Shown: one piece after another, positions 26,534-49,252 of the stretch
How the letters are laid out: every line of letters starts with the position of its first letter
Numbering within the stretch: position 1 is the first letter of the stretch
Assembly: GCF_006171285.1 (NCBI RefSeq)
Contig: NZ_CP040889.1
Location: 4,650,001-4,714,000, forward strand
Source of the DNA: Leclercia adecarboxylata
Lineage (GTDB): Bacteria > Pseudomonadota > Gammaproteobacteria > Enterobacterales > Enterobacteriaceae
DNA: 64,000 bases
Reading direction: 5' to 3'
The notes under the pieces: model-generated
Databases searched by the model: none
Seen by the model: the letters and a program-made list of their open reading frames with translations, nothing else
What the model was told of the DNA's origin: nothing
Program-made: the position numbers and the translations under genes

Positions 26534-26568
26534 AATAAATGCAATAATATTTTATAAATTTGCATTTT
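26534..26568. promoter_or_regulatory. Composite TGCA operator 1, before gntR
   Basis: AAATGCAAT and AATTTGCATTT with TGCA cores 21 bases apart, 25-59 bases before the gntR start. Same arrangement as the four sites listed at 29801, 29951, 48993 and 49224; suggests autoregulation. Confidence 0.65.
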
Positions 26569-26592
26569 CCTCTCCTGAATCAGGGCGCCTGC

Positions 26593-27486
26593 ATGAAAAT
26601 TAGTGCACTCACTGAACGTATCTCACAGAAATTACTGGGTTTAATCGACAGCGGCGATATTGCTCCGGGATCGCATCTCAGCGTGCCTAAGCTGGCGGAA
26701 ACCTTTGATGTTTCGCGCTCCCCCGTTCGTGAAGCGCTGGTGTATCTGGAACAGAAAGGGGTGCTGCTGCAAAAGCAAAACCGCGGCTTTTTTGTTAAAG
26801 AGGACTACGCCCCGCAGGCGGATACCCAACCGGCCCCTTCTGAAGAGCTGGATCTGCCGGAGTATTATCAGCTCGCCGAAGACTGGCTGCGGGACGAGAT
26901 CGAGTCGGAAGTCACCGAGCTGTTCCTGATGAAGCGCTATAACCTCACTAAAAGCCAGCTGTCGACGGTGCTGGCCCGGGGCATCAGCGAGGGATGGGTT
27001 GAGCGCAAGCAGGGCTACGGCTGGCGTTTTTTACCGGTCGCCAAAACCAAGACCGCGCTGGAGCAGATTTTCAGTTTCCGTATGGTCATTGAACCGATGG
27101 CTATCCTGGAGCCTACGTTCAACGCACCGCAGGAGAAGATTAACGAGATCCGCCGCGAGCTGGAAATGCTGCTGGAGAGCGGCATTGAGCGCCTCTCCCC
27201 TACTCAGCTGCAACTGGCGGGCTACCGTTTTCACGAAACGATCATCAGTTTTTCCAACAATCCCTTCTTTGAAATCTCTCTACGTAACGTCAACCGCATG
27301 CGTCGGCTGATGGACTATCGCATCATGGATGACCGCAACCGCTACTACGCGGAAGTGAAAGATCATATGCGCATCCTCGCCCTCATTGAATCCGGACAGC
27401 GGATTGAGGCGTCGTACACTATGAAGCAGCACCTCTCCGTCGCCCTCGATAATAAAAAAATGCGCCGGATCAGCGCGGAAAATTAA
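26593..27486 (+). CDS. GntR-family regulator with two winged-helix domains and a ligand domain
   Basis: 297 residues. Residues 5-68 are a GntR winged helix (LAETFDVSRSPVREALVYLEQKGVL). Residues about 92-150 read as a second winged helix (LKLYNLTKSQLSTVLARG-like: KRYNLTKSQLSTVLARGISE, wing with GYGWRFLP). The C-terminal part is an FCD-type helical ligand domain (MVIEPMAILEP, FHETIISFSNNPFF, DHMRILALIESGQ). The double DNA-binding arrangement fits operators made of two TGCA cores two helical turns apart. ATG at 26593 has AGGG seven bases upstream. Likely represses the two catabolic groups at 28.9-31.1 and 44.2-51.2 kb. Confidence 0.8.
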   Translation: MKISALTERISQKLLGLIDSGDIAPGSHLSVPKLAETFDVSRSPVREALVYLEQKGVLLQKQNRGFFVKEDYAPQADTQPAPSEELDLPEYYQLAEDWLRDEIESEVTELFLMKRYNLTKSQLSTVLARGISEGWVERKQGYGWRFLPVAKTKTALEQIFSFRMVIEPMAILEPTFNAPQEKINEIRRELEMLLESGIERLSPTQLQLAGYRFHETIISFSNNPFFEISLRNVNRMRRLMDYRIMDDRNRYYAEVKDHMRILALIESGQRIEASYTMKQHLSVALDNKKMRRISAEN

Positions 27487-27500
27487 CCCTTGTCCCCAAA

Positions 27501-27527
27501 AAAACGGCTCACAGTGTGAGCCGTTTT
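27501..27527. terminator. Bidirectional terminator between gntR and the CitMHS transporter
   Basis: AAAACGGCTCACA / TGTGAGCCGTTTT around a central base, with A and T runs at the ends, between converging genes. Confidence 0.85.
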
Positions 27528-27531
27528 GCTG

Positions 27532-28869
27532 TCAGCTGGCGACCGAATAGACCGGATAAAGCCCCAGTAAGAGCCCCGACCCGAGGAAGATCATGCACAG
27601 CAGGAACGCCCACTTGAAGGTGTATTTCTGATGGTCGCTGAATTCCACCCCCGCAAGCCCCACCAGCAGATAGGTTGAGGCGACCAGCGGGCTTAACAGG
27701 TGCACCGGCTGGCCCACCAGCGACGCGCGGCCAATCTCCACCGGATCGATACCGTAGGCTTTGGCCGCCTCGGCCAGGACCGGCAGCACGCCATAATAGA
27801 AGGCGTCGTTGGACATAAAGAACGTGCCCGGCAGGCTGATAAGGGCGGTGATCGGCGCCAGATACGGCCCCCAGGACTGGGGCAGCACGTCTAACAGCGT
27901 GTTGGACATGGCGGTCACCATCCCGGTGCCGGAGAGAATACCGGCGAAGATCCCCGCCGCCAGGAAGATAGAGGTCTGGTTCAGCGCGGCAGGCGCATGG
28001 GCCGCGATACGCTGGCGCTGGGCATCCAGATGCGGATAGTTAATCAGCAGCGCAATCGCAAAGGCCACCATAAACAGCACCGACAGCGGGAGCAGTTCCA
28101 TCACCAGCGAGGCCATCAGCGCCAGCGTCAGGGCGGCATTGAGCCAGAACATTTTTGGCCGACGCAGCTCGTCATTCACCTCATTGATGGCAGGCAGATA
28201 GCTCTCGGCATCCTCTTCCGTAACCGCGCCGTTGCCGTTGGTCTGAATGCTCAGCTTGCCAAGGCGGCGGCGTTCACGGATGCCGATATACCAGGAGAGC
28301 ACCAGCACCCCCACCAGGCCGCAGATCATCGAGGGGATCAGCGGGATAAACAGCTCGCTCGACTCTACCTTTAACGACGCCGACACGCGCGCCAGCGGCC
28401 CGCCCCACGGCAGCAGATTGGTGACGCTCCCGGAGAGAAACACCACGCAGGTCAGGGCCAGCGGGTCGAGACGAATACGCTTAAACAGCGGCAGCATCGC
28501 CGTCACGCAGATCATGTAGGTGGTTGATCCGTCACCGTCCAGGGAGACCATCGCCGCCAGCAGCGCCGTACACATCACCGCTTTAACCGGGTCGCCGTTA
28601 ATAATGCGCAGGAAGAAGCGGATTATCGGATCGAATAATCCGGTATCGAACATGGTACAAAAATAAAGAATGGCAAAAATCACCATAATCGCGGTAGGCG
28701 CGACCTTCTTTAACCCCTCAATCATCATATCGCCCATCTCACCGCCAAAACCGGCAATAAGCGCAAACAGAATGGGAATAATAGTCAGGGCCGTCAGCGC
28801 GGATAATTTTTTGGTCATGATAAGGATCATAAAGACCACAATCATGCCGTAACCCAGGAACGAGAGCAT
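27532..28869 (-). CDS. CitMHS-family citrate/metal-type transporter
   Basis: 445 residues with about 11-12 membrane helices. LDGDGSTTYMICVTAMLPL and LLPWGGPLARVSASL are characteristic of the CitMHS family, whose members import citrate or related di/tricarboxylates, often as metal complexes. It lies 74 bases behind the SDR gene on the same strand and probably shares its promoter. This suggests that the substrate of the pathway is a polycarboxylic acid. Start has GGAGACTCTT upstream. Confidence 0.85.
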   Translation of the reverse strand: MLSFLGYGMIVVFMILIMTKKLSALTALTIIPILFALIAGFGGEMGDMMIEGLKKVAPTAIMVIFAILYFCTMFDTGLFDPIIRFFLRIINGDPVKAVMCTALLAAMVSLDGDGSTTYMICVTAMLPLFKRIRLDPLALTCVVFLSGSVTNLLPWGGPLARVSASLKVESSELFIPLIPSMICGLVGVLVLSWYIGIRERRRLGKLSIQTNGNGAVTEEDAESYLPAINEVNDELRRPKMFWLNAALTLALMASLVMELLPLSVLFMVAFAIALLINYPHLDAQRQRIAAHAPAALNQTSIFLAAGIFAGILSGTGMVTAMSNTLLDVLPQSWGPYLAPITALISLPGTFFMSNDAFYYGVLPVLAEAAKAYGIDPVEIGRASLVGQPVHLLSPLVASTYLLVGLAGVEFSDHQKYTFKWAFLLCMIFLGSGLLLGLYPVYSVAS

Positions 28870-28943: not shown

Positions 28944-29687
28944 TTAACTCATGTGCATACCGCCGTTGACGGAGAAGTTCGCCCCGGTGGCGTATCCGGC
29001 TTCATCGGAGGCAAGCCAGGCGCAAATAGAGGCAATTTCTTTTGGCGATCCCAGCCGCCTGACCGGTATTTCCTGCACAATCTTGTCGATAACCTGAACG
29101 GGAGTGACCGTCTTCAGTTTGCTGGTGGCAAGGTAGCCAGGGGAGACGGTATTCACCGTGACGCCGCGCGCCGACACCTCGCGCGCCAGGGCGCGGGTAA
29201 AGCCCCGGACGGCATATTTTGCGGTGGAGTAGTTCACCTGGCCGACGGTGCCAATCTGCGCGTTTAACGAGGAGATATTAATAATGCGCCCCCAACCGCG
29301 CGCCATCATGCTGTCCACCACCTGACGCGTGACGTTAAATAAGGAGTTCATATTGGTATCAATAACCGCCTGCCACTCCTGGGGCTGCATATCGCGAAAT
29401 AATACGTTGCGCGCCGTGCCGGAATTATTAATCAGCACGTCGACCTCGCCCACTTCCGCGCGGATCTTTTCAAAGGCTTTTACCGTGGAATTCCAGTCTG
29501 CAACGTTTCCCTCAGAGGCAATAAAATCAAAACCTAATTTCCTGTTATCCTCCAGCCAGGCGTCTTTTCTTTTGGAATTCGGCCCGCAACCCGCGATGAC
29601 AATAAATCCGTCCTGCGCCAGCCGACGACAAATAGCCGTGCCGAGACTCCCCATTCCCGATGTTACATACGCGATACGTTGGGTCAT
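28944..29687 (-). CDS. Short-chain dehydrogenase/reductase (3-oxoacyl/acetoacetyl reductase type)
   Basis: 247 residues, standard SDR length. TSGMGSLGTAICRRLAQDG binds the cofactor, NNSG follows, and the catalytic Ser/Tyr/Lys are in NISSLNAQIGTVGQVNYSTAKYA. It resembles PhaB-type NADPH reductases, but the context (carboxylate transporter, lactonase) suggests a hydroxy-acid substrate. The ATG at 29687 follows GGGAGAGGGGT. First gene of the leftward operon with the transporter; operator 2 lies upstream. Confidence 0.85.
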   Translation of the reverse strand: MTQRIAYVTSGMGSLGTAICRRLAQDGFIVIAGCGPNSKRKDAWLEDNRKLGFDFIASEGNVADWNSTVKAFEKIRAEVGEVDVLINNSGTARNVLFRDMQPQEWQAVIDTNMNSLFNVTRQVVDSMMARGWGRIINISSLNAQIGTVGQVNYSTAKYAVRGFTRALAREVSARGVTVNTVSPGYLATSKLKTVTPVQVIDKIVQEIPVRRLGSPKEIASICAWLASDEAGYATGANFSVNGGMHMS

Positions 29688-29800
29688 ACCCCTCTCCCGT
29701 TGCAGATTATTAACATTGCTCACTTCTCATTAACATTAAGCGGCGGGCATAGTCATTCCGCAACCTGACCTTGTTGGAAATGTGAGCAAGATCGTTCAAT

Positions 29801-29832
29801 TTATGCATTTGCAAATAATTAAATGCAATTAT
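29801..29832. promoter_or_regulatory. Composite TGCA operator 2, SDR side
   Basis: TTATGCATTTGC and AAATGCAATTAT with outer TGCA cores exactly 20 bases apart; a third TGCA lies between them. 114-145 bases before the SDR start. Confidence 0.65.
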
Positions 29833-29950
29833 CAGGACAGAAAAGAATCTGCATTCGTTATCTTCATGGCAGGAAACCTGCCATTAAAGCCGCACAAACA
29901 CAGGAATAACGAGGATTGGCACTGAGAAACGAGACAACCATCACGGCACG

Positions 29951-29982
29951 ATAAATGCATTTATATTATAAAAAATGCAAAG
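29951..29982. promoter_or_regulatory. Composite TGCA operator 3, before the lactonase gene
   Basis: The perfect 14-base palindrome ATAAATGCATTTAT is followed by AAAAATGCAAAG; TGCA cores are 20 bases apart. It lies 15-46 bases before the lactonase ATG, a repressor position. The minus strand of the site at 48993-49024 matches it almost base for base. Confidence 0.7.
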
Positions 29983-29997: not shown

Positions 29998-31086
29998 ATG
30001 ACAACCTATGCTTACGTTGGCTGCCGGACTTCGGCATGGCGCGGTGCGCGCGGTAAGGGGATCACCCTGTTCCGCATTACCGAGTCGGGTAAATGGGAGC
30101 CGCTACAGTGCCTGGCTTCCGTGCAGGAAAATCCCTCGTGGCTGACGCTTGATATGCGGCGCAACCGGCTGTATGCGCTGCACGGCGATGGCGACCGCGT
30201 GGCGGTGTTCGATCGCGATCCTGACACCGGCCTGCTGACGTTAAGTAGCGAGCAGACCACCGGGCCACGCCACCCTCACCCGGATCTGGAGCCCGCCCGC
30301 AGAAATAATCCGGTTGGGGCCGCGCTGACGCCCGACGGCAACACGCTGCTGATCGCCAACCATGAAGGGGGCAACATTGCCGCCCTGCCGATCAGCGATA
30401 AAGGGCTGGAGCCGCCCATCGATTTCGCTCGCATCGCCGGTCATACCGGCCCTGACTCCCTGTCCCGTCCGCACGAGATCGTTTTTGCGCCGGGGTGCAA
30501 TCTCTTTGCCGTCCCGGTTCAGGGCCGCAAGGCGGGCAACGGCATCGATATGATGCGCCTTTATCACTGGGAGCAGACCCGCTCATGCCTTGCCGATGAG
30601 GTGATGCTCCCGGCAGGCAGTTGGCCCCGCCACGCCGATTTTCATCCCAATGGCCAGTGGCTGTTCGGCCTCAGCGAGCTGAGCAGCACCGTCACCTTTT
30701 TTCACGTTGACCGGGAAAAAGGCACGCTCTCGCTGCGGCACACCCTCAGCGCGCTGCCGGAGGGTTACGACCTGCGCAGCGACGCCAGCGAGATCGAGGT
30801 GCATCCTTCCGGGCGTTTTGTCTATGCCGCCAACCGCGGGCATGACTCCATCGCCGTGTTCAGCGTCAGCCCGCAGGATGGCTCACTCACCGCTGTTGGC
30901 TGGGTGCCGTGCGGCGGAAAAACGCCCCGCTTTACCACTCTGTCGCCCGACGGCAGGCAGTTCATCAGCGCTAACGAAGATTCCGACACTCTTCAGGTGT
31001 TCGACGTCGACAGCGAAACCGGCATGTTGTCGGCAACGGATGTGGTGGTTGCCACTGCCAGCCCCACCTGCATCTGTTTTGCCTGA
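29998..31086 (+). CDS. Lactonase-family seven-bladed beta-propeller protein
   Basis: 362 residues of the lactonase family that includes 6-phosphogluconolactonase (Pgl/YbhE) and carboxy-cis,cis-muconate cyclase. Propeller repeats such as NPVGAALTPDGNTLLIANHEGGNI, SEIEVHPSGRFVYAANRGHDSIAVF and FTTLSPDGRQFISANEDSDTLQVF-type segments are regular, each with the conserved His/Arg/Glu-type positions of the family. It probably opens a sugar-acid or carboxylic-acid lactone in the cytoplasm. AGGAG precedes the ATG. Its stop codon directly abuts the stop codon of the converging LysR gene. Confidence 0.85.
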   Translation: MTTYAYVGCRTSAWRGARGKGITLFRITESGKWEPLQCLASVQENPSWLTLDMRRNRLYALHGDGDRVAVFDRDPDTGLLTLSSEQTTGPRHPHPDLEPARRNNPVGAALTPDGNTLLIANHEGGNIAALPISDKGLEPPIDFARIAGHTGPDSLSRPHEIVFAPGCNLFAVPVQGRKAGNGIDMMRLYHWEQTRSCLADEVMLPAGSWPRHADFHPNGQWLFGLSELSSTVTFFHVDREKGTLSLRHTLSALPEGYDLRSDASEIEVHPSGRFVYAANRGHDSIAVFSVSPQDGSLTAVGWVPCGGKTPRFTTLSPDGRQFISANEDSDTLQVFDVDSETGMLSATDVVVATASPTCICFA

Positions 31087-31998
31087 CTACTCCTCGGCAG
31101 GTTCACAGGGGATCAGGCTGCCGATAAGGGATTTAACCGACGGCGAGGCCTGGGCGTAATCTTTTACGCCCACCAGCAGCTCCCGCTGCGCCCAGGGCTC
31201 GGCGAGGGGAATTAACCGCACACCGCTGTGCAGCGTTGAAGAGGCTACCTCGTTCACCGGCACAATGGCGATCCCCAGCTGCTGAGCCACCAGCTCGGCC
31301 ATGGAGATAAAGCTGCTCACCCGCAGCCCGACGCTGAGGGTCTTACCGCAGGCGCGGGCCTGCCGCTCAAGGATGTGGCTCACGGCGCTGTTGCGATGCG
31401 CGCCAATCAGCTTCTCATCAATAATGTCTTCAAATTTCAGCTCGCTGCGCTCCGCCAGGGGGTGAGTGGGCCACACCAGCACCGACAGCAGATCGTGCTG
31501 CCAGGGCCAGGAGACGATCCCCGCCGCAGACGTCCAGCTGGAGAAGAACCCGACGTCCGCCTCGCCCGACAGCAGCCCCTGCACCACGCTTATCCCGGTG
31601 TGCTCCTCAATCTCAATATCGGTCTGCGGATAGTGGGCCAGATAGTCGCTCACCACCCGCGGCAGGTTATTCATCAGCGCCGCCGAGATAGTGTAGATGC
31701 GGATATGGCCGCGGATCCCCGCGGCATAGTCACTGAGCTCTTCTTCCATCTTCTCAAGATTGCGGAACACCTGGCGGGCATGGTAGAGCAAGGAGTGGCC
31801 CGCCGGGGTAAGGGTGATGCCCCGGGGCATGCGCAGCATCAGCGGGGTGCCCACCTGCTGCTCCAGCTCCGCGATACGCTTGCTGACCGCCGATACCGCG
31901 GTATGCTTCCTGCGGGCCGCGTGGGTGAGGTTTTGCTCCTCGGCGACCGCCACGAACAGAGATAGAGAGACCAGATCAAAGCGCATTGTTTTATCCAT
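31087..31998 (-). CDS. LysR-family regulator downstream of acnA
   Basis: 303 residues: winged helix at about 8-66 (THAARRKHTAVSAVSKRIAELEQQ) and the effector domain. It starts two bases after the acnA stop, so it is translated from the same message; this differs from the usual divergent LysR layout and hints at feedback on acnA. The target is not seen directly. It converges on the lactonase gene with zero bases between the two stop codons. Confidence 0.85.
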   Translation of the reverse strand: MDKTMRFDLVSLSLFVAVAEEQNLTHAARRKHTAVSAVSKRIAELEQQVGTPLMLRMPRGITLTPAGHSLLYHARQVFRNLEKMEEELSDYAAGIRGHIRIYTISAALMNNLPRVVSDYLAHYPQTDIEIEEHTGISVVQGLLSGEADVGFFSSWTSAAGIVSWPWQHDLLSVLVWPTHPLAERSELKFEDIIDEKLIGAHRNSAVSHILERQARACGKTLSVGLRVSSFISMAELVAQQLGIAIVPVNEVASSTLHSGVRLIPLAEPWAQRELLVGVKDYAQASPSVKSLIGSLIPCEPAEE

Positions 31999-32000
31999 GG

Positions 32001-34649
32001 TTAATGCTTCAGCGTTTGCTGAATAACATACGGCAAAATACCGCCGTGGCGGAGATAACGCAGCTCCTGCTGCGAATCGAGGGTCAGCGTCAGCCCGAAT
32101 TCGCCCAGCAGGCTGTTGTCCCGCCGGATACGCATCGTCAGCTGCGTCCTGCCCGCCTGGAGGTTTTCCAGCCCTTCCACGTCGATCGCTTCGCGCCCGT
32201 CCATCTCCGGCAGGCGCGCGGCGTCAGCCGGGTCGAGATGCAAAGGCAAAATCCCCATGCCGATCAGGTTGGTGCGGTGGATCCGCTCGAAACTCTGCGC
32301 TATCACCGCCTTCACCCCCAGCAGCGCCTGGGCTTTAGCGGCCCAGTCCCGGCTGGAGCCCGCGCCGTAGCGCTCTCCGGCGAAGATCACCAACGGCGTT
32401 TCACGTTGCAGCCAGCTTTGCGCGGCGTCATACGCGGGCAGGATCTGCTGATGCGCGGCATCCCAGGCCTTTCCGCCGCCGCCACGTAGCGCCGCCGGAA
32501 GCAGGCGGTTAGAGAGCGCGGTATTACTGAAAGCTCCGCGCACCATCACCTCGTGATTGCTGCGACGCGTGGAGTATAAATTCAGGTCCTGCGGGTCTTC
32601 GTGATGCTCAATCAGCCACTGCCCGGCGAGACTCGCCAGCGGGATCGCTCCGGCCGGAGAGATATGGTCGGTGGTGACATCATCCCCTAACCACAGGAAC
32701 GGATGCGCGCCAGAGAGCGTCAGCGGCGCGGCGGGATCCCGGGGTAAACGCTCAAGATAACCCGGACGGCGCAGATAGGTGGAGCCCGCCTCCCAGGGAT
32801 AGTGCACACTTCCCGGGGCAACGATCTCCTGCCAGTGGCCCGTACCCTGCCAGATAATCTCCCGGCGCTTAACGTAGTGCTCGCGTTTCATTACCCGCCC
32901 GAGCCAGGTTTCTACCTCTTCGCGCGACGGCATAAGATCGCGCATCATGATCGGGCGCTGCGCGTCGTCAACCCCGAGCGGTTCGTTCAGCATGTCATGA
33001 GAGATATGGCCTGCGAGAGCCCAGGCGATCACCAGCGCCGGAGAGGTCAGATAGCCGTGTCCGAGGGAGGGATTCACCCGACGGGGGAAATTACGGTTGC
33101 CGGAGAGGACGCAGACCGCCTGCAGGCCGTCGTTGACCAGCGCCTCCATGGCCGGTTGCAGCGCCCCGGAGCTGCCGATGCAGGTCATGCAGCCGTAGCC
33201 CGTCACGTCAAAACCGACCTTTTCCAGTTCGGACAGCAAACCCGACTCGCTGAGATAGTCGGTCACCGCCCGTGAGCCCGGCGAGAACGAGGTTTTCACC
33301 CAGGGCTTTGGCTTAAGGCCGTGCTTCGCGGCGTTGCGGGCAAAGAGCGCCGCCTGAACAATCAGCCACGGGTTCGCGGTGGTGGTGCAACTGGTAATCG
33401 CCGCGATGGCCACCGCCCCCTGGCGGATCGGCTCCGGGTAGTCCGCGCGCGTCCACTGCCGCCCTTTCGCTTCGACGCTCAGCGTCTCGTCGAAGCTGCT
33501 GGCCGCCTGCCCCAGCGGGATCTGCTGGTGCGGGTTCACCGGCCCGGCCATGCAGGGCTCGATAGTCGAAAGATCGAGCTCGATGCGCTGGCTGAACGCA
33601 GGCTGCGGCGACGCTTCTGTGCGCCACAGGTGTTGCGCCTGCATATAGGCCCGGATTAACGCCTGCTTTTCTTCGCTCCGCCCCGTTAAGGCAACGTATT
33701 CGGCGCTGCGTTCGTCAAACGGAAAGAACACCACCGTCGCGCCGTATTCCGGGGCCATGTTGGCGATGGTGGCCCGGGATTCAACCGACATAGCGGCTAA
33801 CGCCGGCCCGGTGAACTCGACAAATTTACCCACCACCCCCGTCTCCCGCAGCAGACGGGTGATGTGCAGGGCCAGATCGCTGTCGCTCACCTCAGAGGAG
33901 AGCGTGCCGGAGAGCGAGATGCCCACCACCTCAGGGAAACGCAGCGTGACCGGTTCCCCCACCAGCGCGGCCTGCCCTTCGAGGCCGCCCACGCCCCACC
34001 CCAAAATGCCCAGGGCGTTGATCATCGGGGTATGACTGTCGGTGGCGATCATGCAGTCCGCATGCAGCAGCGGAACGGCAGCGGTGTTATCCACCGTCAC
34101 CACCTCCGCGACGGCCTCAAGGTTCATCAGATGGATGATCCCGGTGCCGGGCGGGATCACCCGGAAATTATCCAGGCTCTTTTCTGCCCAGCGGATAAAG
34201 CGGTAGCGTTCGGCATTACGACGAAAATCGAAGCGCAGGTTCTCTTCCAGCGCGGCGGGTGACGCATAGCTTTCGACAATCACCGAGTGATCGATAGTCA
34301 GCACCGCCGGAATGCGCGGGTTAATCGCCGTGGCATCGCCGCCCAGTTCGGTCGTGAGATCGCGCATGGCGGCAAAATCGGCCAGCGCCGGCAGGCAGGT
34401 GGTGTCGTGAAACATCAGACGATCGGGATAAAAGGCCACTTCGCCCTTCTCCGCCGACCCGGCAAGCATCTGCAAAAACGCGGGCAGCGCTCCCGGCGAA
34501 CGCAGGGCCACGTTTTCCAGCAGCACGCGCAGGCAGAAAGGGATGGTCTGCAATCTCTCCAGCGGCAGCAGCCGGGTGAGATCCAGAAAATGGTAAGGCT
34601 GATTATCAATGATCAGCTCTGATTGGTTGAGGGTCAGGGTCGATGTCAT
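32001..34649 (-). CDS. Aconitase family hydratase, AcnA-type paralogue
   Basis: 882 residues. The 4Fe-4S ligands are in AITSCTTTANP and GYGCMTCIGSSG; DSHTPMINALGILGWGVGG, SPGSRAVTDYL, GDDVTTDHISPAG and GAGSSRDWAAKA are the standard aconitase motifs. The housekeeping acnA of enterics lies in another neighbourhood (cysB-ribA), so this is an extra copy, and its chain is diverged. Next to a CitMHS transporter and lactonase it may isomerise a citrate-like compound rather than citrate. The ATG at 34649 follows GGAAGG; the frame runs 56 codons further up without support. No TGCA operator was seen before it. Confidence 0.85.
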   Translation of the reverse strand: MTSTLTLNQSELIIDNQPYHFLDLTRLLPLERLQTIPFCLRVLLENVALRSPGALPAFLQMLAGSAEKGEVAFYPDRLMFHDTTCLPALADFAAMRDLTTELGGDATAINPRIPAVLTIDHSVIVESYASPAALEENLRFDFRRNAERYRFIRWAEKSLDNFRVIPPGTGIIHLMNLEAVAEVVTVDNTAAVPLLHADCMIATDSHTPMINALGILGWGVGGLEGQAALVGEPVTLRFPEVVGISLSGTLSSEVSDSDLALHITRLLRETGVVGKFVEFTGPALAAMSVESRATIANMAPEYGATVVFFPFDERSAEYVALTGRSEEKQALIRAYMQAQHLWRTEASPQPAFSQRIELDLSTIEPCMAGPVNPHQQIPLGQAASSFDETLSVEAKGRQWTRADYPEPIRQGAVAIAAITSCTTTANPWLIVQAALFARNAAKHGLKPKPWVKTSFSPGSRAVTDYLSESGLLSELEKVGFDVTGYGCMTCIGSSGALQPAMEALVNDGLQAVCVLSGNRNFPRRVNPSLGHGYLTSPALVIAWALAGHISHDMLNEPLGVDDAQRPIMMRDLMPSREEVETWLGRVMKREHYVKRREIIWQGTGHWQEIVAPGSVHYPWEAGSTYLRRPGYLERLPRDPAAPLTLSGAHPFLWLGDDVTTDHISPAGAIPLASLAGQWLIEHHEDPQDLNLYSTRRSNHEVMVRGAFSNTALSNRLLPAALRGGGGKAWDAAHQQILPAYDAAQSWLQRETPLVIFAGERYGAGSSRDWAAKAQALLGVKAVIAQSFERIHRTNLIGMGILPLHLDPADAARLPEMDGREAIDVEGLENLQAGRTQLTMRIRRDNSLLGEFGLTLTLDSQQELRYLRHGGILPYVIQQTLKH

Positions 34650-41471: not shown

Positions 41472-42056
41472 TCATGGATTTTTTTGGCTAAAAGCAACGA
41501 TGTAAGAACAGCCCTGCTCGCTATCAGGATTACTTAACTGGCACTCGCTTGCAAAGGTCAGAGCAAGAGAGTCACCGGCGCGTAGATGATGGGTCTGATG
41601 ATTGACGCGAAAATCAAGGCTGCCACTCAACATCCAGAGTGTTTGCCCGGAAAGATGCTCATTCGCGGTGGCGGGTATCGTCAGCTCACCCTTAGCCGGA
41701 ATCTCAACTCTTATAAGTTCCGGGCAGGCCCCTGCAGGGGAAAGCGACCAGCGGGTAATGCCTGAGTGTTCATCCGTCCAGTGCTGCTGCTCATGAGCAA
41801 AAAGAACAAGTGAGTTCTGATGTTGCTCAAGCTCTGCGAAAAGCTTTGATAGCGTAAGATTCATCGCGTTAGCTAAACGACTCAGTATCGTTGCACTGGG
41901 GCTGGAGGTGCCTCGTTCCACCTTGCTAATCATGGCCTGACTGACGCCCGATCGTTGAGCAAGCTCAGTGACAGTCAGATTGCGAGCCTTTCTGTGTTTA
42001 AGCAACAAACGTGCGATGTCGCTATCGAGTATCTGATTTTTAGATGTTTTTTCCAT
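41472..42056 (-). CDS. XRE-family regulator with C-terminal cupin
   Basis: 194 residues from the ATG at 42056 (AGGGG upstream; GTG two codons earlier possible). Helix-turn-helix at about 18-72 (TVTELAQRSGVSQAMISKVERGTSSPSA-type) and a small cupin at about 118-190 with AGDSLALTF. Such proteins repress nearby catabolic or transport genes in response to a small molecule. It is divergent from the phosphatase-like gene 213 bases away. Confidence 0.85.
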   Translation of the reverse strand: MEKTSKNQILDSDIARLLLKHRKARNLTVTELAQRSGVSQAMISKVERGTSSPSATILSRLANAMNLTLSKLFAELEQHQNSLVLFAHEQQHWTDEHSGITRWSLSPAGACPELIRVEIPAKGELTIPATANEHLSGQTLWMLSGSLDFRVNHQTHHLRAGDSLALTFASECQLSNPDSEQGCSYIVAFSQKNP

Positions 42057-42269
42057 TTTCACCCCTGGTTTCGCCAGCCTGATTATGCCATTTCATAAAT
42101 CAGGCTGAAACTGATGATTTAGCAGGTATGAAAATCAGGATTTACCAAACGTTCTTCATCTGTCACGCACCCTGATCGCCGCGGTCAACCCAAAATATGG
42201 TGGTGGTACACCCTGCCTTCATCGCGTTAGTCTGTCTGCGTCAAAAGAACCAGAAAAACGAAGCTCTTT

Positions 42270-42890
42270 ATGGAAATTATTCTGATGCGTCATGGAAAGC
42301 CGGCTTATGCAGGCTCTGCGAGGGTAACAAGCCTTGAGATGGCTGAATGGATTTCAGAATATGATCTCTCTGATACGGGCAGCGATATGCCCCCGCAATC
42401 CAGTAAAGCATTAGCATCCAGTGCACTGCACATCATAAGCAGTCCTCTTCCCAGAGCGCTCTCATCCCTGAGGGCATTAGGGCGTGAACCGGACCTCATT
42501 GATAAAGTCTTCAGGGAAGCAGACCTGCCCATAATCCGGATGCCCGCTCTCAGATTGTCCCCCCTCTTCTGGGCGGCTTTTTTCCGCGTGATGTGGCTGT
42601 GTGGCATATCCCGTAACGCAGAGTCCCTGGGAATAGCGAAACAACGCGCCGCTCGGGCTGCGGATATCCTGATTGCGTTTGCAAAAGAATCAAACGGTCC
42701 TGTGCTGCTCATAGGTCATGGGGCGATGAATCGGTTGATCGCAAAGGAACTCATATCGTCAGGCTGGAGAGAGTGCCGTCGTCAGGGGAGTGGTTACTGG
42801 AACGCGGGTATTTACAGCTTACTCCAGACCCGTTCCTCTGCCTCAGCACTCAGTGGGTCAATTAATCAGCCCAGGCTCCCGCTTTTTTAA
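42270..42890 (+). CDS. Histidine phosphatase family protein
   Basis: 206 residues. MRHGKPAY carries the RHG catalytic motif and LLIGHGAMNRL the second histidine, as in SixA/phosphoglycerate-mutase-like enzymes. Substrate unknown. It is followed by the alpha/beta hydrolase 27 bases later. Confidence 0.8.
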   Translation: MEIILMRHGKPAYAGSARVTSLEMAEWISEYDLSDTGSDMPPQSSKALASSALHIISSPLPRALSSLRALGREPDLIDKVFREADLPIIRMPALRLSPLFWAAFFRVMWLCGISRNAESLGIAKQRAARAADILIAFAKESNGPVLLIGHGAMNRLIAKELISSGWRECRRQGSGYWNAGIYSLLQTRSSASALSGSINQPRLPLF

Positions 42891-42917
42891 ACCGGCTGGC
42901 TTAAACAGGAAGATTTG

Positions 42918-43829
42918 ATGTATACCAAAAATATTTGTGCGATGCTCGGCGGGACTTTTTTACTGATGTCTGCGTTCATTACGACGTCCAAAGCTCAATC
43001 TCTGCCCCTGGCATCAGAACAGCCGAATTTGCAGTTGATGTCCGTTCAGACGCAAGGCTCAGGAACGGATGTCATATTGATTCCAGGCCTGGCGTCGTCT
43101 CGCGGGATCTGGACCGATTTAGCATCAGGTTTACAGTCTGGCCACCGCGTTCACATTTTAGAGCTGGCGGGCTTTGCGAGTACACCTGCTATTTCCAGCC
43201 GGGACGGTAAGGTCATCGCCCCAGTCGTTGACGCCATCGCTGAATACATCCGCACTCAGCACATCAACGCTCCGGCGATCGTTGGCCATTCTCTTGGCGG
43301 CGAGATTGCATTGATGTTGGGGGCCCGGTATCCCGATCGGGTTGGTCGCTTAATGATTGTCGATGCTTTACCGTTCTATTCGTTAATGATTGACCCTGAA
43401 GCGACCAGCGAAACAGCTTCCCAGCGTGCAATTGCTATAAGGGAGTGGATACTGGCGCAATCGCCGCAAGAATTTGAAGCGTTTCAGAAAGCATCCATAG
43501 CCCGTTTAGCTAAGACCGAAGCGGTGAGGCCCGCTCTGGTGGCGGCAGGGCTCAGTTCCGATCGCAGAACCATTGCAGATGCTGTGTATGAATTGATGGT
43601 TACCGACTTGCGCCCCGAGCTTGGCCGCATTAGCGCACCGATTGAGGTCGTTTATGCGTATGACGCCTTATTCGGGGTGCCTGCCTCCGGTGTGGATGAA
43701 ATGTACCGTCGAGCCTATACCAATGCGCGAGATATCCATTTCACACGCATCGATGACAGTTTTCACTTTATCATGCTCGATCAGCCAAGACGGTTCTCCA
43801 GCGCGGTTGAGTCATTTTTAAATAAATAA
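42918..43829 (+). CDS. Exported alpha/beta hydrolase
   Basis: 303 residues with a signal peptide (to about residue 26, SKA). Nucleophile Ser is in VGHSLGGEIAL, oxyanion region in LIPGLASSRGIW, and the final His in DSFHFIMLDQP. A periplasmic or secreted esterase-like enzyme of unknown substrate. AGGAAG precedes the ATG at 42918. Confidence 0.83.
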   Translation: MYTKNICAMLGGTFLLMSAFITTSKAQSLPLASEQPNLQLMSVQTQGSGTDVILIPGLASSRGIWTDLASGLQSGHRVHILELAGFASTPAISSRDGKVIAPVVDAIAEYIRTQHINAPAIVGHSLGGEIALMLGARYPDRVGRLMIVDALPFYSLMIDPEATSETASQRAIAIREWILAQSPQEFEAFQKASIARLAKTEAVRPALVAAGLSSDRRTIADAVYELMVTDLRPELGRISAPIEVVYAYDALFGVPASGVDEMYRRAYTNARDIHFTRIDDSFHFIMLDQPRRFSSAVESFLNK

Positions 43830-43839
43830 GGCATGGTCA

Positions 43840-44064
43840 TCAGGCGTTACGGCCAGCCATCACGCCGCCATAAATATCCCAGATAGCGCCGGTGACCCAG
43901 CCAGTCTTGTCAGAAAGCAGGAAAGCCACGGTTTCGGCGATATCAACCGGTGTACCTACGCAACCGATCGGGTGGAAGCTGTCAAAGCTGTTCATCACCT
44001 CCTTCACCTCGTCTTTCGCAATAAAGCCTTCGTAAATCGGCGTGTGAACAACGGCTGGAGACAC
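43840..44064 (-). pseudogene. C-terminal remnant of an SDR gene
   Basis: 74 codons equal to the last third of a short-chain dehydrogenase: [56 protein letters not shown]. The cofactor-binding and catalytic parts are missing, so it is a remnant; the upstream sequence changes abruptly at about 44064. Confidence 0.8.
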
Positions 44065-44234
44065 CGAAACCGGCCAGCTGGCTCAGCTGCATCCCGACCA
44101 TCGGTGGCAGCTCAATTGGTCTTATTATCTGGTCACCGCGCAGCAAAAAGTCATGCGTGCTGAAGTCAACGTCTTCCATGACTGGCTTCTTCAGGAAGGA
44201 GATTGTCGAAGCACATTTCCACCAGGCTTTACCA
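44065..44234 (-). pseudogene. Unidentified gene remnant fused to the SDR fragment
   Basis: In another frame the minus strand reads EDVDFSTHDFLLRGDQIIRP and [18 protein letters not shown] just before the SDR fragment. It looks like coding sequence from a different gene, joined out of frame by a deletion. I do not recognise it. Confidence 0.45.
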
Positions 44235-44912
44235 TTACGCCATAGCCAGTTCACGATCAATAATCCCCTGCACCGCACCGTCCGCCTGCCAGCGGGTCAG
44301 CATCTCAACAAGCTGGTGGTAGCGCTGTTCATTACCCCGGGGTACGCAGATCGCCTGATGTATCTGACCGAAATTATCGGGCAGAACCCGATAACCAGAG
44401 TGCGCGGCAGATGTGCGCTCCAGCGGCTGGCGAATTCCCGCCGCCATGTCCCCCTCCCCCTGCAGAAACGCATCAATGGCGGCCTGGGATGAGGCGAGCC
44501 GGTTGAGGGTGGCATGCAGCAGGTGTCGGGTCAGATGCAGATCGTATGCCGCCCCCTTACCGACGTTGATCACAACCCCTGGCTTATCCATCTGTTCAAC
44601 GCTCTGCCACGAACTCCCTTCGTGAACCAGCACCGTGCCCTGAATGGTGATATAGGGCTGGGTAAACTGCAGGATCATCTCCCGCTGCGGGTCCACCGCC
44701 AGAAAGGCGATGTCCCAGTAATCCTTCTGCGCATCCTCCACCACCTTTCCGGCGGCCGGGTAAGTTTTTAGCTGCGCGCTGCAGCCCAGCTCCGCGGCTA
44801 TCTTATGCGCCAGCTGGACCGTTATTCCGCCGGGACTGCCGTCCGGTAGCTCCCTTGCCAGAACAGCATTGCCCAGATTAATAGCAAAACGCAGGTTTTT
44901 AGTGACTGACAT
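44235..44912 (-). CDS. Solute-binding-like protein without signal peptide
   Basis: 225 residues of the family-3 periplasmic binding fold (LRFAINLGNAVLARE, DIAFLAVDPQREMILQFTQPY, GVVINVGKGAAYDL). The ATG at 44912 has a strong GGAGGAG site and there is no signal peptide or lipobox, so it stays in the cytosol. It overlaps the end of the MFS gene by 14 bases, and is the last gene of the leftward operon. It may be a ligand sensor or have been recruited as an enzyme; no ABC permease or ATPase gene is near. Confidence 0.75.
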   Translation of the reverse strand: MSVTKNLRFAINLGNAVLARELPDGSPGGITVQLAHKIAAELGCSAQLKTYPAAGKVVEDAQKDYWDIAFLAVDPQREMILQFTQPYITIQGTVLVHEGSSWQSVEQMDKPGVVINVGKGAAYDLHLTRHLLHATLNRLASSQAAIDAFLQGEGDMAAGIRQPLERTSAAHSGYRVLPDNFGQIHQAICVPRGNEQRYHQLVEMLTRWQADGAVQGIIDRELAMA

Positions 44913-46278
44913 GAGGCTCCTCCGCAAGTCGCTCAGGTTCATGATTATCAGTGTCAAAACTCAGACGCTGGATTTTCCCTGCGACGAATAAATAACAGCA
45001 CAGATTCAGGAACGCACAGACGCCAACGAAGATAAGCGCCCCGTTAAATGAGCCGGTGTCTTTAATAATGTAGGCGATAATAATCGGCGTGAAGATCCCG
45101 GAAATATTACCGATCATATTGAACAGTCCGCCGCTCAGGCCAATCGCCTCTTTTGGCGAGAAGTCGGAGACCACGCACCACCCCATCGCCCCGAACCCTT
45201 TGCCGAAAAAGGCCAGCGACATGATTGCCACCACAATCCACGCCGAGTCGACGTAGTTACAAATCACCATGCTCACCGCCAGCAGCATGCCGATCACAAT
45301 CGGCGTTTTACGCGCCGCAGAGAGGCTAAAGCCGCGCGAGAGCATGTAATCGGACAACACGCCGCCCAGCAGCGCCCCCGCACAGCCGCACAGGGCCGGT
45401 AACGAGGCCACAAACCCAGCTTTGAGGATGGTCATGCCGCGATCGTGAACCAGGTAAACGGGAAACCAGGTCAGGAAGAAGTACGAGAGCACGGTAAAGA
45501 AGAACTGCCCCATATAGACGCCGAGCGCCAGGCGGTTAGTCAGCAGCTTGCGGGTATAACCTTTGCCCGCGCTGTCTCCTTTTTTCGCGGCCTTAAGGTT
45601 GGTCAGCCCTCCGCCCGACTGGATATAATCCAGCTCCGCGCTGTTCACCAGCGGGTGAACCTTCGGCGTGTCGGCAAGCACCCGGTGCATCAACAGGGAG
45701 ACCAGAATGCCCAGCCCGCCCATAAACCAGAACACCGACTCCCAGCCGTAACTATAAGAAAACCAGCCCATTAAGGGTAAAAACACCACCAACGCAAAGT
45801 ACTGTGCCGCCGTGGTAAACCCGGACGCTTTGCCGCGTTCACGTGCCGGGAACCAGGCGGCAAGAAAGCGGGAGTTGGCAGGCAGGGTCGGTGCTTCAAT
45901 CAGCCCCATCATAAAGATAAAGCCGAAGATCATGATCCGGGTGACCCAGACGTTATCAAACGAGGTGCTGAACCCCACCAGGAAAACAAACAGCGACCAG
46001 GTAAAGACGCCGGTCACCAGCACCCGTTTGGAGCCGAAGCGATCGAGCAGCCACCCGCCGGGATACTGGCCCAGCACGTAAGCCCAGGTGAACGTCGATA
46101 TCAGGTAGCCCAGCGCCACAATATCAAGGCCAGCGGCGTTAACCATATCGGTACCGGCAATGGAGAACGTGGCGCGATCGCCATGATTTAACGCGATACT
46201 CAGGAACACCATCAGCAAAATCATATAGCGATAGTGCGTGGGTTTCTTTTTAGATGAAGCAGAGTCAGGTGTTGTCAT
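44899..46278 (-). CDS. MFS transporter, anion:cation symporter type (GudP/GarP-like)
   Basis: 459 residues from the ATG at 46278; a GTG at 46296 overlapping the previous stop is the alternative. Twelve membrane helices; NHGDRATFSIAG, QYPGGWLLDRFGSKRV and PARERGKASGFTTAAQYF match the family of acid-sugar transporters (galactarate, glucarate, galactonate). It likely imports the acid substrate of this operon with protons. Confidence 0.85.
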   Translation of the reverse strand: MTTPDSASSKKKPTHYRYMILLMVFLSIALNHGDRATFSIAGTDMVNAAGLDIVALGYLISTFTWAYVLGQYPGGWLLDRFGSKRVLVTGVFTWSLFVFLVGFSTSFDNVWVTRIMIFGFIFMMGLIEAPTLPANSRFLAAWFPARERGKASGFTTAAQYFALVVFLPLMGWFSYSYGWESVFWFMGGLGILVSLLMHRVLADTPKVHPLVNSAELDYIQSGGGLTNLKAAKKGDSAGKGYTRKLLTNRLALGVYMGQFFFTVLSYFFLTWFPVYLVHDRGMTILKAGFVASLPALCGCAGALLGGVLSDYMLSRGFSLSAARKTPIVIGMLLAVSMVICNYVDSAWIVVAIMSLAFFGKGFGAMGWCVVSDFSPKEAIGLSGGLFNMIGNISGIFTPIIIAYIIKDTGSFNGALIFVGVCAFLNLCCYLFVAGKIQRLSFDTDNHEPERLAEEPHVSH

Positions 46279-46292
46279 TCTTTTCGGCCTTA

Positions 46293-47177
46293 TCACGAAG
46301 ACGAAGAGTTAAATCCGTAAAGGTCTGCCGGGTTGTGCACAAACAGACGGTGCCGGACCCGGTCGTTATTTGCCCAGTGCGCAATGCGCGAGAGGATCAG
46401 CGCGTCGTCGGGCATGTTTTTATTGGCGCTGATGAGATTCGGGTGCGGCCAGTCGCTGCCCCACACCACTCGCTCGGTGGCATCAAAGAGAAAACCTTTA
46501 ATTATTCCCGCCATATCAGACACATCATCCCGCTGCGACTGATGGTAAAGCGCAGAGAGTTTGACCCAGCAACGTCCCGAATCGATAAGCTCCCAGGCCA
46601 GTTTCCATGCCGGATGGGAGAGCGGTTCCGGCTGCGGCAGGCGAAAGAAATGGTCGATCACCAGCCTGCCCGGAACCTGCTTCAGCACGGACCGCAGGGC
46701 CCAGAGCCGATCGGCGCTGGCATGAACCTGCACATGCCAGCCGCGCTCCGCCACCCGGGCGGCCAACGGCAGCAGCATCTCCGGCGTGGTGATACTCCCG
46801 GCAGCAAAATTGAAGCGAATGCCGGTCACCCCGGCGTCGGCAAGGGTGTCCAGATCCGCGTCGCTGACGGATGGCGTCACCACCGCCTCGCCGCGCGCGT
46901 TCTCCCCAAAGGCCTTCAGGGCATCAAGTAAGCAGCGGTTATCCGCCCCGTAGGAAGACGGCTGCACCAGCACGTGGCGCGTAAAACCGAGCCATGACTG
47001 GAAAGCCCGATAATCATTCACCCTGGCATCAGGGAGGTTGCGTTCATCATCCGGCGCCCAGGGGTAACGCCGGTCAAAAATATGATGATGGCAGTCGCAG
47101 CTGTTGGCAGGTAACAGGAGATCTGGCGCAGAGGATATGCGGCTGTATTTAATCTGCGTCTCTTTATGATTATTCAC
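46293..47177 (-). CDS. Amidohydrolase of the 2-pyrone-4,6-dicarboxylate hydrolase (LigI/COG3618) family
   Basis: 294 residues, GTG start. The beta-barrel hydrolase motifs CDCHHHIFD (HxH), WHVQVHA, VIDHFFR and VVWGSDWPHPN are those of COG3618 proteins, which act on lactones: LigI on 2-pyrone-4,6-dicarboxylate and others on galactaro- or fuconolactones, often without metal. Here a lactone of an acid sugar or carboxylate is the likely substrate. Second-to-third in the IMDH operon; nine bases after the racemase-like gene. Confidence 0.85.
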   Translation of the reverse strand: MNNHKETQIKYSRISSAPDLLLPANSCDCHHHIFDRRYPWAPDDERNLPDARVNDYRAFQSWLGFTRHVLVQPSSYGADNRCLLDALKAFGENARGEAVVTPSVSDADLDTLADAGVTGIRFNFAAGSITTPEMLLPLAARVAERGWHVQVHASADRLWALRSVLKQVPGRLVIDHFFRLPQPEPLSHPAWKLAWELIDSGRCWVKLSALYHQSQRDDVSDMAGIIKGFLFDATERVVWGSDWPHPNLISANKNMPDDALILSRIAHWANNDRVRHRLFVHNPADLYGFNSSSS

Positions 47178-47186: not shown

Positions 47187-47840
47187 TTACTTCATCATCC
47201 GCTTTAATTTATGCACGGCGGACTGCGGGCTACTGAATACCGCGCAGGAGACGGCGGAACTCACCTCCTGCCAGGCGATCTCCATCGAGAAATGGGCCAG
47301 CAGGATCGCATCAGCCCCCTGATGTTGCCGCGCCGCCTCGACGATGAGCTGGTTATGCAGGCTGGCATTTCCTGCGTTCAGGGCATCACGCGCGCCGGGC
47401 ACCACGTAGCTTTGCAGCCTGGCGTCCACCTGGCGGGCAGAAGCCAGAACGCTGAACTCCTCCTCCATCCCTTTTACGGCGGGCGCGAAGGTCGCCAGCA
47501 TCACGATATTGCGCCCCTTCGCCAGGGCATCCTCGAACATCGCCTCGTTAGGCTTGAGCACCGGCAGAGGAACGACTTGCGCGCTGGACTCAATGGCGGC
47601 CCCGAACGCCGAGCAGGTAAACAGCACCGCGGCGGCATCAATGCTGACGGCATACTCCACCAGGGCGTGAATACGCTGATGCAAGCGCGGGGTCAGGGTT
47701 GGCTCTTTGGCCCGATCAACGCTTAAGGCATCGTCGAGCAGATTGCTGATTTCTGCTTCAGGCCACAGGTTCCTGAAGGTGTCATTAATCGGCGCGACGG
47801 CCAGGGGCGTGGCGTGGATCAGGACAATACGTTGGCTCAT
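47187..47840 (-). CDS. Asp/Glu racemase superfamily protein
   Basis: 217 residues from the ATG at 47840 (GGAGAG upstream). Cys76 in VLFTCSAFGAAIES is the first catalytic position. The second canonical cysteine is absent (LLAHFSMEIAW instead of a Cys-Thr/His motif), so racemisation by two cysteines is unlikely; decarboxylation or isomerisation with one cysteine is possible. Between the IMDH-like gene (52 bases) and the amidohydrolase gene. Confidence 0.78.
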   Translation of the reverse strand: MSQRIVLIHATPLAVAPINDTFRNLWPEAEISNLLDDALSVDRAKEPTLTPRLHQRIHALVEYAVSIDAAAVLFTCSAFGAAIESSAQVVPLPVLKPNEAMFEDALAKGRNIVMLATFAPAVKGMEEEFSVLASARQVDARLQSYVVPGARDALNAGNASLHNQLIVEAARQHQGADAILLAHFSMEIAWQEVSSAVSCAVFSSPQSAVHKLKRMMK

Positions 47841-47892
47841 GGTGCTCTCCGGAAAACGGGCTGCCCGCAACGAGGGCAGCCGCAAATCATGC

Positions 47893-48963
47893 TCAGGAGC
47901 GAATAGCCGCTGCCACTTTTTCTGCAAAAGCTTTGGTGCCGCAGGTGCCGCCCAGATCCGGCGTGCGGGTTGCCGGGTTCTCCAGCACTTCGTCCACCGC
48001 ACGGCCGATCTCGTCCGCCGCTTTGAGGAATTTCGGCTGGTTGTGCTTCTCGGCATACCAGGCCAGCATCATCGCCGCGGAGAGGATCATCGACACCGGG
48101 TTGGCTTTATCCTGGTTCTGAATATCCGGGGCGGAACCATGCTGCGCCTGGGCACAGCAGTGGGTGTCGCTGGCCATGATAGAGCCCGCCAGGCCCAGGC
48201 TGCCGGAGAGTTCGCTTGCCAGATCGCTGATGATGTCGCCATAGAAGTTAGTAGCCACTAACACATCGAAGCGTTCCGGGTTACGCACCAGGTGCGCGGT
48301 GGAGGCGTCCACCAGCAGATCGTCGAGCTGCACTTCCGGGAACTCTTTTGCCACCGTGCGCACGGCTTCGAGGAACAGGCCGTCGGTCATATGGAAGCTG
48401 TTGGCTTTGTGAATAGCGGTCACTTTTTTCTTGCGCTGCATTGCCAGCTCAAAGGCTTTACGGGCAATGCGCTCAGAGCAGTGACGGGTGATTTTGCGCG
48501 TGGACAGGGCCATATCCGGGCTTGGCATGACCTCCCCCCAACCGCGGGTCATGTTACGGTCCGGATAAAACCCTTCCGTGGCCTCGCGCATAATCACCAG
48601 ATCCATGGTTTTGCCCTCTTTCATGTTCGACGTCAGGAAAGGACGCGTCCGTGCCGGGCGAACGTTGGCATACAGATCCAGACCGATACGGAAGCCCGCC
48701 GAGACGTTGCGACCGCCCTTTTCCGGTGCCGGATAATCTGCGTGTGACTGGGTGCCCAGGATAATGCCATCGTAGGTTTTCGCTCTGTCTAACGACTCCT
48801 GACGCAGCGTGGTGCCGTATTTCTCCAGGCTGGTGAAACCCACCTCTTCGTAATCAAATTCAAAATCCAGGCCGAAGGCTTTATCCAGTGAATTCAGCAC
48901 GGTTACCGCAGCTGAGGTGATTTCAGGGCCGATACCGTCACAAGGCAGAACCAGAATGCGCAT
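47893..48963 (-). CDS. Isocitrate/isopropylmalate/tartrate dehydrogenase family, NAD-dependent oxidative decarboxylase
   Basis: 356 residues. Substrate arginines in NVRPARTRPFL, ITEGFYPDR-like REATEGFYPDR, catalytic Lys in IHKANSFHMTDG and metal aspartates in NFYGDIISDLASELSGSLG mark the family of beta-hydroxyacid dehydrogenases that oxidise and decarboxylate malate-type acids. Position-specific residues do not match LeuB or Icd strictly; tartrate, D-malate or an alkylmalate is possible. First gene of the leftward operon with composite operator 4 just upstream of its ATG. Confidence 0.85.
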   Translation of the reverse strand: MRILVLPCDGIGPEITSAAVTVLNSLDKAFGLDFEFDYEEVGFTSLEKYGTTLRQESLDRAKTYDGIILGTQSHADYPAPEKGGRNVSAGFRIGLDLYANVRPARTRPFLTSNMKEGKTMDLVIMREATEGFYPDRNMTRGWGEVMPSPDMALSTRKITRHCSERIARKAFELAMQRKKKVTAIHKANSFHMTDGLFLEAVRTVAKEFPEVQLDDLLVDASTAHLVRNPERFDVLVATNFYGDIISDLASELSGSLGLAGSIMASDTHCCAQAQHGSAPDIQNQDKANPVSMILSAAMMLAWYAEKHNQPKFLKAADEIGRAVDEVLENPATRTPDLGGTCGTKAFAEKVAAAIRS

Positions 48964-48992
48964 AAAAAACTCCAGGTAGGTTGCTTGCTTTC

Positions 48993-49024
48993 GATTGCAT
49001 TTTTATAACAATAAATGCATCTAT
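48993..49024. promoter_or_regulatory. Composite TGCA operator 4, before the IMDH-like gene
   Basis: GATTGCATTTTTATAA and ATAAATGCATCTAT with TGCA cores exactly 20 bases apart, 30-61 bases before the start codon. Read on the minus strand it is nearly identical to operator 3, including the spacer. Confidence 0.7.
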
Positions 49025-49029
49025 GGCAA

Positions 49030-49045
49030 GGTGATACAGATCACA
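49030..49045. promoter_or_regulatory. CRP-type site in the divergent promoter
   Basis: GGTGA-TACAGA-TCACA departs from TGTGA-N6-TCACA at one base and is flanked by AAG and TTTAT as in good CRP sites. It points to catabolite control of the flanking catabolic operons. Confidence 0.65.
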
Positions 49046-49223
49046 TTTATCCGATAAGTCTTTTGAGATTTAGCATTTTCTTTACCTTTCATACACTTGC
49101 AGGCAGCAATTTTTTGCGTCTTAAATGCCTGCAACTTCTGGATGCAACCGGGAGGTAGCACTTTGGGACACAGTGTCGCAAATTGACCCAAAATGTGATC
49201 TTAACCACGTTTTAACAACCACC

Positions 49224-49252
49224 ACATTTGCATTTGTATATACATAAAAGCA
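49224..49252. promoter_or_regulatory. Composite TGCA operator 5, before the kinase gene
   Basis: ACATTTGCATTTGTAT followed by ATAAAAGCAA; the cores TGCA and AGCA are 20 bases apart. It lies 36-64 bases before the kinase ATG at 49288. Confidence 0.6.

Follow-up and report, generated by a model that had tools for sequence, protein, structure and literature searches.

A stretch of 64,000 nucleotides from Leclercia adecarboxylata (contig NZ_CP040889.1, positions 4,650,001 to 4,714,000; hereafter the window) carries two groups of catabolic genes lying 20 kb apart, and the question it raises is whether both are governed by the GntR-family regulator encoded beside one of them. An earlier note, made from the letters of the window alone, had proposed that they form one regulon marked by composite sites with TGCA cores. 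In silico comparison supports this well because the operators are conserved, matches to them are nearly absent elsewhere, and both gene groups and gntR are contiguous in relatives. Five predicted operators, which precede gntR and the genes for an SDR oxidoreductase, a lactonase-family protein, an isocitrate/isopropylmalate dehydrogenase family protein (IMDH) and the kinase OtnK, respectively, very probably belong to one autoregulated, catabolite-controlled regulon under a GntR repressor with two winged helix-turn-helix (wHTH) units in tandem, to which binding is predicted. What had been a visual hint thus becomes a specific regulon with a precise operator, and an acid-utilisation cluster is brought to attention. 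The earlier note had found the operators of this regulon; co-positioned CRP-like sites and a link between the wHTH units and operator width, both discussed below, were not mentioned there.

The five sites share a 24-base palindrome, TGCATTT-N10-AAATGCA, with half-sites spaced 20 bp apart and with one half reading TGCTTTT in the operators of gntR and otnK. Their placement before gntR, in the SDR/lactonase gap and in the IMDH/kinase gap was confirmed in the window, as was the statement that four of them lie 15-65 bases before start codons (the gaps for gntR, lactonase, IMDH and otnK measure 49, 18, 32 and 29 bases), the SDR operator standing 116 bases upstream of its gene. Two cores per site, TGCA or in one case AGCA, at 20 bp hold for four sites; the register given for the first does not, since it paired TGCA at 26540 with TGCA at 26561 (21 bp), whereas all 12 relatives compared share 26520-26543 (20 bp) in the form TGCTTTT/TGCATTT-N10-AAATGCA. 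We therefore rejected the 21-bp register as the main gntR operator: its right-hand core occurs in just 6 of the 12 relatives, and it is absent from the 14 best places of the window under the weight matrix described below. The core at 26561 may nevertheless be an auxiliary half-site helping a weak left half rather than noise, because it recurs at exactly the same offset in those six relatives, five of which have the weaker left half TGCTTTT and one TGCATTT. The near-complete agreement over 30 bases claimed for the third and fourth sites was overstated, the matches amounting to 20 of 25 and 24 of 32 bases.

The motif is highly specific to the cluster. We built a weight matrix from 59 sites in the 12 relatives (L025-L033, L035/L070, L076/L077 and L122), excluding the window and omitting a relative with a degraded gntR copy and no site (L034), two distant ones (L036 and L037) and one whose match covers a single winged helix (L038). 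The matrix is independent of the window in sequence, but not in concept, because the relatives' sites were located with consensus patterns derived from the window. Scanned with it, the window yields the five operators as ranks 1-5, at 33.8-39.8 bits, and the sixth place scores 6.6 bits, a gap of 27 bits; after triplet shuffling of the window, the best place in each of 20 shuffles reaches 1.6-11.1 bits. The pattern TGCAWWT-N10-AWWTGCA, drawn from the sites, matches the 5.76-Mb genome exactly at three places, all in the window cluster, and TGCWYTT-N10-AAATGCA, allowing one mismatch, has seven places, namely the five operators, which fit exactly when read in at least one orientation, and two further places, each one mismatch off. 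Competing matches elsewhere in the genome, which would have told against the proposal, are thus limited to those two, with no further exact place. Eleven genomes with the cluster (G000-G009 and G011) contain 54 cluster sites at up to one mismatch, 51 of them exact, with five per genome except in G011, which shows no SDR match above 90 bits and has four; exact places outside the cluster number three in these genomes (one each in G002, G006 and G008). At up to one mismatch no site is found anywhere in G010, whose gntR is degraded, and G012 and G013 have no exact match and three one-mismatch places each; in G012 one of the three is 92 bases upstream of the lactonase match.

Conservation in relatives, the other check that had been proposed, found the five operators strongly kept, and in aligned intergenic gaps the half-sites and the CRP-like sites stand out as islands amid diverged sequence. 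Spacing within operator pairs is 150-152 between O2 and O3 in 9 of 12 genomes, window included (146, 142 and 140 in the others), and 233-236 between O4 and O5 in 10 of 13 (231, 228 and 224 in the others). With regard to DNA looping between paired operators, which we do not claim, 140, 142 and 224 lie about one turn off the rest; 146, 228 and 231 do not.

The description of the regulon as split needs qualification. The gene groups are indeed 20 kb apart in this genome, but they are contiguous in relatives, where a single cluster runs gntR-citMHS-SDR-lactonase-LysR-(acnA)-SBP-MFS-amidohydrolase-racemase-IMDH // otnK-aldolase (L025-L033 with their continuations L061-L069, and also L076/L077 and L122; for acnA the evidence is the annotation of L122 and DNA alignment of L025-L028). 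The split is secondary, since an insertion of about 9.5 kb interrupts the cluster in the window; at the same point the five aligned relatives have 29-171 bases. The nine insertion open reading frames (ORFs) of at least 150 aa match Pfam models for DUF1349, MFS, LysR, GNAT, alcohol dehydrogenase, HTH_3, phosphatase and hydrolase proteins, with one ORF lacking a match, and no mobility gene was found among them; a repeat search at the insertion gave three short direct-repeat families, none at both borders, and no inverted repeat. Enterobacter sp. EA-1 (L035/L070) has citM on the opposite side of gntR. The cluster is patchy: at E<=1e-60 it matches 6 of 392 family genomes, a count that includes the own genome and two matches with in-frame stops, and no match at this threshold was found in four other genomes of the same genus that were sampled. 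It is chromosomal in the window genome and plasmid-borne in Pantoea agglomerans, and Mangrovibacter plantisponsor DSM 19579 has it too. The degraded gntR copy seen in one relative matches residues 42-296 with one in-frame stop. Candidatus Pantoea deserta has a second tandem-type GntR gene (L029 1680-2534), 35% identical and about 7.5 kb from the first, beside extra amidohydrolase and IMDH copies.

A second layer of control is suggested by CRP-like sites, defined as the best match to TGTGA-N6-TCACA and counted over 13 genomes including the window. A site at fixed distance, as expected of a CRP-dependent promoter, is present at three genes, and CRP binding is predicted there: for lactonase and for IMDH all 13 genomes place its centre exactly 18 bp upstream of the operator, and for otnK 11 of 13 place it 27 bp upstream, the two exceptions (L064 and L070) having their best match elsewhere and yet a similar site near the usual position in the aligned gap. 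Class I and class II CRP promoters are defined by the position of the CRP site; with promoter geometry counted by hand, lactonase and IMDH resemble class II promoters and otnK a class I promoter. O1 overlaps a TTGCTT that looks like a -35 element and an extended -10-like TGCAATAAT, which we read as a putative promoter, and this overlap suggests autorepression of gntR. A TATAAA-like hexamer lies inside the lactonase and IMDH operators.

The regulator itself, 297 aa long, offers a possible reason for the width of the operators. Pfam recognises a GntR wHTH (PF00392) at residues 6-68 (75.9 bits, cut-off 27) and an FCD domain (PF07729) at residues 158-282 (55.7 bits, cut-off 24.3), and an AF2 model built from 13 sequences (mean pLDDT 84.3, pTM 0.60) has two winged-helix-like units, at 5-68 and 89-147, followed by an all-helical FCD domain. 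Searched alone, the second unit (wHTH2) gives a weak GntR match (E 0.0013, below cut-off); its profile aligns to that of wHTH1 with 97% probability in hhalign. In the three distant members of one alignment (A1), conservation is higher in wHTH2 (49, 41 and 45%) than in wHTH1 (40, 32 and 30%). Solved chains match the regulator by sequence over wHTH1 or over FCD, and no chain among the best 50 of 57 Foldseek rows at E<=0.001 fits the whole model, because these GntR-type chains are shorter (198-278 residues) and superpose at an rmsd of 6.9-18. FCD domains bind metal through an Asp and three His; H214, H258 and H280, possibly among these ligands, are invariant in both alignments.

The mechanism that we consider most likely is as follows. 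A GntR dimer would bind the 26-bp palindrome TTGCATTT-N10-AAATGCAA when inducer is absent and block transcription, the operator spanning the presumed -35 to -10 interval at gntR and otnK and covering the presumed -10 at lactonase and IMDH. Activation by cAMP-CRP would most likely be of the class II-like kind at lactonase and IMDH and, judged by the position of the site, of the class I-like kind at otnK, and an acid metabolite of the cluster would bind the FCD domain and release the repressor.

How does this regulator compare with known ones? The FadR-subfamily (FCD) GntR regulators, such as DgoR, LldR, NanR and the VanR-type Atu1419, share the N-terminal GntR winged helix and the C-terminal FCD domain and likewise control acid and sugar-acid catabolism; the regulator in the window differs in having a second GntR-type winged helix in between. 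The operators differ as well. A passage of PMC4494728 gives the FadR-subfamily consensus as the compact NyGTM-N0-1-KACNy and names exceptions within the subfamily, whereas the half-sites in the window are separated by N10. Membership in the FCD group therefore holds for domains and not for operator shape, the known consensus being compact. Two GntR stretches occur in 6 of 8 other scanned members of what we define here as the tandem-wHTH FCD group. E. coli LgoR (YjjM; 303 aa, annotated as putative, lgoR at L130 2938-3852) shares the domain order of two GntR stretches and FCD by Pfam and is 19% identical to the window regulator in a multiple alignment; no TTGYWNWT-N10/N11 palindrome at up to two mismatches was found in 1.6 kb around lgoR, and other imperfect N10 inverted repeats are present in the lgoR-lgoD gap. 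Among the papers listed in searches of open-access literature, we found no description of the tandem-wHTH FCD group or of the operator motif.

Related regulators in gamma-, beta- and alphaproteobacteria often have palindromes of a similar kind, spaced N10 or N11, which points to a partly shared operator shape. Of seven alpha- and betaproteobacterial loci, four have an exact TTGYWNWT-N10-AWNWRCAA (Rhizobium NXC24, Agrobacterium pusense, Variovorax and Paraburkholderia); across N0-N20 in the same seven, further exact matches come up once each at N1 and N4, both starting at the Variovorax site, and twice at N17, with none at N5-N9 or N11-N16. Propionivibrio has one such palindrome before its lactonase. 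In Rhizobium sp. NXC24 a gene annotated as trans-aconitate 2-methyltransferase (L123 10289-11059) lies by the cluster, and the divergent gap there has an exact N10 palindrome at 11090. We compiled 39 upstream regions, of which 37 belong to regulators 27-35% identical and two to regulators that are closer (37 and 45%), and scanned them with a half-site picked after inspection and with control spacings N0-N24. Allowing one mismatch, 27 of the 39 have a palindrome spaced N10 or N11, at N10 in 8 regions and at N11 in 19 (shuffle means 0.37 and 0.33, maxima 3 and 2); the tally by spacing is 8 for N10 and 24 for N11, with 8 for N4, 6 for N17 and 4 each for N1, N3 and N5. The N11 regions are not all independent, since many of them seem to represent a single clade in a single context. 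The wide palindrome is thus found in the window cluster, and group-wide only in part. It is quite possible, if slightly short of an even bet, that a broad unnamed GntR group including LgoR has a duplicated winged helix of which both helices per protomer would hold an 8-bp half-site, so that the dimer reads palindromes of about two turns in contrast to compact FCD operators. Such a link would connect two unusual features, the duplicated domain and the width of the operator, within a very large family of regulators, and would give a handle on uncharacterised regulators, LgoR among them.

Several observations weigh against the interpretation given above. In 12 of the 39 regions no N10 or N11 palindrome is found; in two of these (G1005 and G916, also L073 and L075) gntR follows a citMHS gene, for which reason the operator may lie elsewhere. 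A scan of the 39 for inverted repeats without a prescribed half-site (7-base arms, no mismatch) showed no enrichment at N10, with 2 against a shuffle mean of 1.9; at N11 it gave 11 (mean 1.6, maximum 5), some of which are terminator or coding hairpins. At SDR only 5 of 12 genomes have their best CRP-like match on the conserved island, and the CRP-like sites there and before the lactonase of the window are poor (3 mismatches). No conserved CRP-like site was found at gntR, a perfect one being present in Huaxiibacter (L027) only. The SDR operator is upstream of its CRP-like site and not over an obvious SDR promoter, which leaves repression at SDR unexplained. Finally, the LysR gene inside the cluster could also act there.

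That the five sites are chance palindromes is practically negligible: promoter gaps are AT-rich and loose matches common, the first pattern having 161 forward places in the genome at up to two mismatches versus 127 for a reversed control, and the window holding 36 places at three mismatches versus a shuffle mean of 28.2, a number reached by 12 of 100 shuffles, but chance does not account for operators 27 bits clear of the next position in the window and kept in 12 relatives while neighbouring bases diverged. It is also quite improbable that the palindromes are sites of a different regulator, such as the LysR protein, with GntR merely nearby. The LysR gene is matched in nine loci (L025-L033); however, a palindrome stands before gntR itself, Paraburkholderia, Agrobacterium and Rhizobium combine palindrome and tandem GntR with no match to the window LysR in the fetched stretch (E<=1e-8), and in Variovorax the single LysR match is weak and lies about 8 kb away from gntR. 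Furthermore, related GntR proteins have related palindromes upstream of their own genes, and the genome with the degraded gntR (G010) has no site left at up to one mismatch. Less remote, though still unlikely, is a GntR acting as activator or dual regulator at the five sites, as the FCD regulator CitO activates according to part of PMC4746285 and as the upstream position of the SDR operator would allow. Four of the five promoters speak against it, with an operator that covers the presumed -10 or -35/-10 interval and so fits repression, and at three promoters the activator position is already taken by a CRP-like site. One regulon under a GntR repressor hence remains our preferred reading, and Table 1 gives its elements and genes.

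Table 1. Features of the regulon and its surroundings in the window
Feature	Positions	Strand	Remarks
Operator O1, before gntR	26520..26543	+	TGCTTTTAAAGAAAAATAAATGCA; matrix 39.8 bits; in 12/12 relatives compared
Extra TGCA half-site downstream of O1	26561..26564	+	Possibly auxiliary; same offset in 6/12 relatives
GntR regulator, 297 aa	26593..27486	+	wHTH1 5-68, wHTH2 89-147, FCD 153-292 (Pfam, AF2, profile alignment)
CitMHS-family transporter	27532..28869	-	Profile match
SDR oxidoreductase	28944..29687	-	Profile match
CRP-like site by SDR operator	29781..29796	-	3 mismatches to TGTGA-N6-TCACA; conserved island
Operator O2, SDR side	29804..29827	-	Matrix 33.8 bits
CRP-like site before lactonase	29930..29945	+	Centre 18 bp upstream of O3; 3 mismatches in window, 0-2 in 12 relatives
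Operator O3, before lactonase	29956..29979	+	Matrix 39.2 bits
7-bladed lactonase-family protein	29998..31086	+	Pfam
LysR-type regulator	31087..31998	-	Pfam
AcnA-type aconitase	32001..34817	-	Profile match
Insertion of ~9.5 kb, separates cluster halves	34766..44256	.	DNA comparison; absent from five aligned relatives (L025-L028, L122)
SBP_bac_3-fold protein	44235..44957	-	Best solved-structure matches are cyclohexadienyl dehydratases
MFS transporter	44899..46296	-	Nearest model D-galactonate transporter
Amidohydrolase_2-family hydrolase	46293..47177	-	Pfam
Asp/Glu racemase-family protein	47187..48056	-	Start uncertain: ORF overlaps IMDH
IMDH	47893..48963	-	Profile match
Operator O4, before IMDH	48996..49019	-	Matrix 34.7 bits; covers TATAAA -10-like hexamer
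CRP-like site before IMDH	49030..49045	-	Centre 18 bp upstream of O4, 13/13 genomes
CRP-like site before otnK	49194..49209	+	Centre 27 bp upstream of O5, 11/13 genomes
Operator O5, before otnK	49229..49252	+	Matrix 38.0 bits
otnK, 3-oxo-tetronate kinase	49282..50547	+	524 bits, cut-off 350
Class II aldolase, OtnC-like	50498..51178	+	Name by analogy with annotated relatives

The genes of the cluster give hints of its substrate. It has otnK and a class II aldolase in common with OtnK/OtnC acid-sugar clusters, and unlike these it adds aconitase, CitMHS, IMDH, racemase and lactonase under a GntR; in Brucella, erythronate metabolism is attributed to the DeoR-family VdtR in a passage of PMC10580937. 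No ABC permease or ATPase gene accompanies the SBP_bac_3-fold protein in the annotated Pantoea cluster, and this protein may be an enzyme because of its best matches among solved structures. Together with the aconitase, CitMHS and the NXC24 methyltransferase, the resemblance of this protein to cyclohexadienyl dehydratases suggests a tricarboxylate, which we do not adopt as a claim: no pathway was found that fits these hints and also IMDH and OtnK/OtnC. As reported in part of PMC11495376, a Pantoea agglomerans strain used trans-aconitate without a TarA homologue. Outside the cluster, at 58475-63796, a gene for a HEPN_LA2681-domain protein (533 aa) lies by a 1235-aa ORF for which Pfam gave no match at 1e-5; the two may form a defence-type pair.

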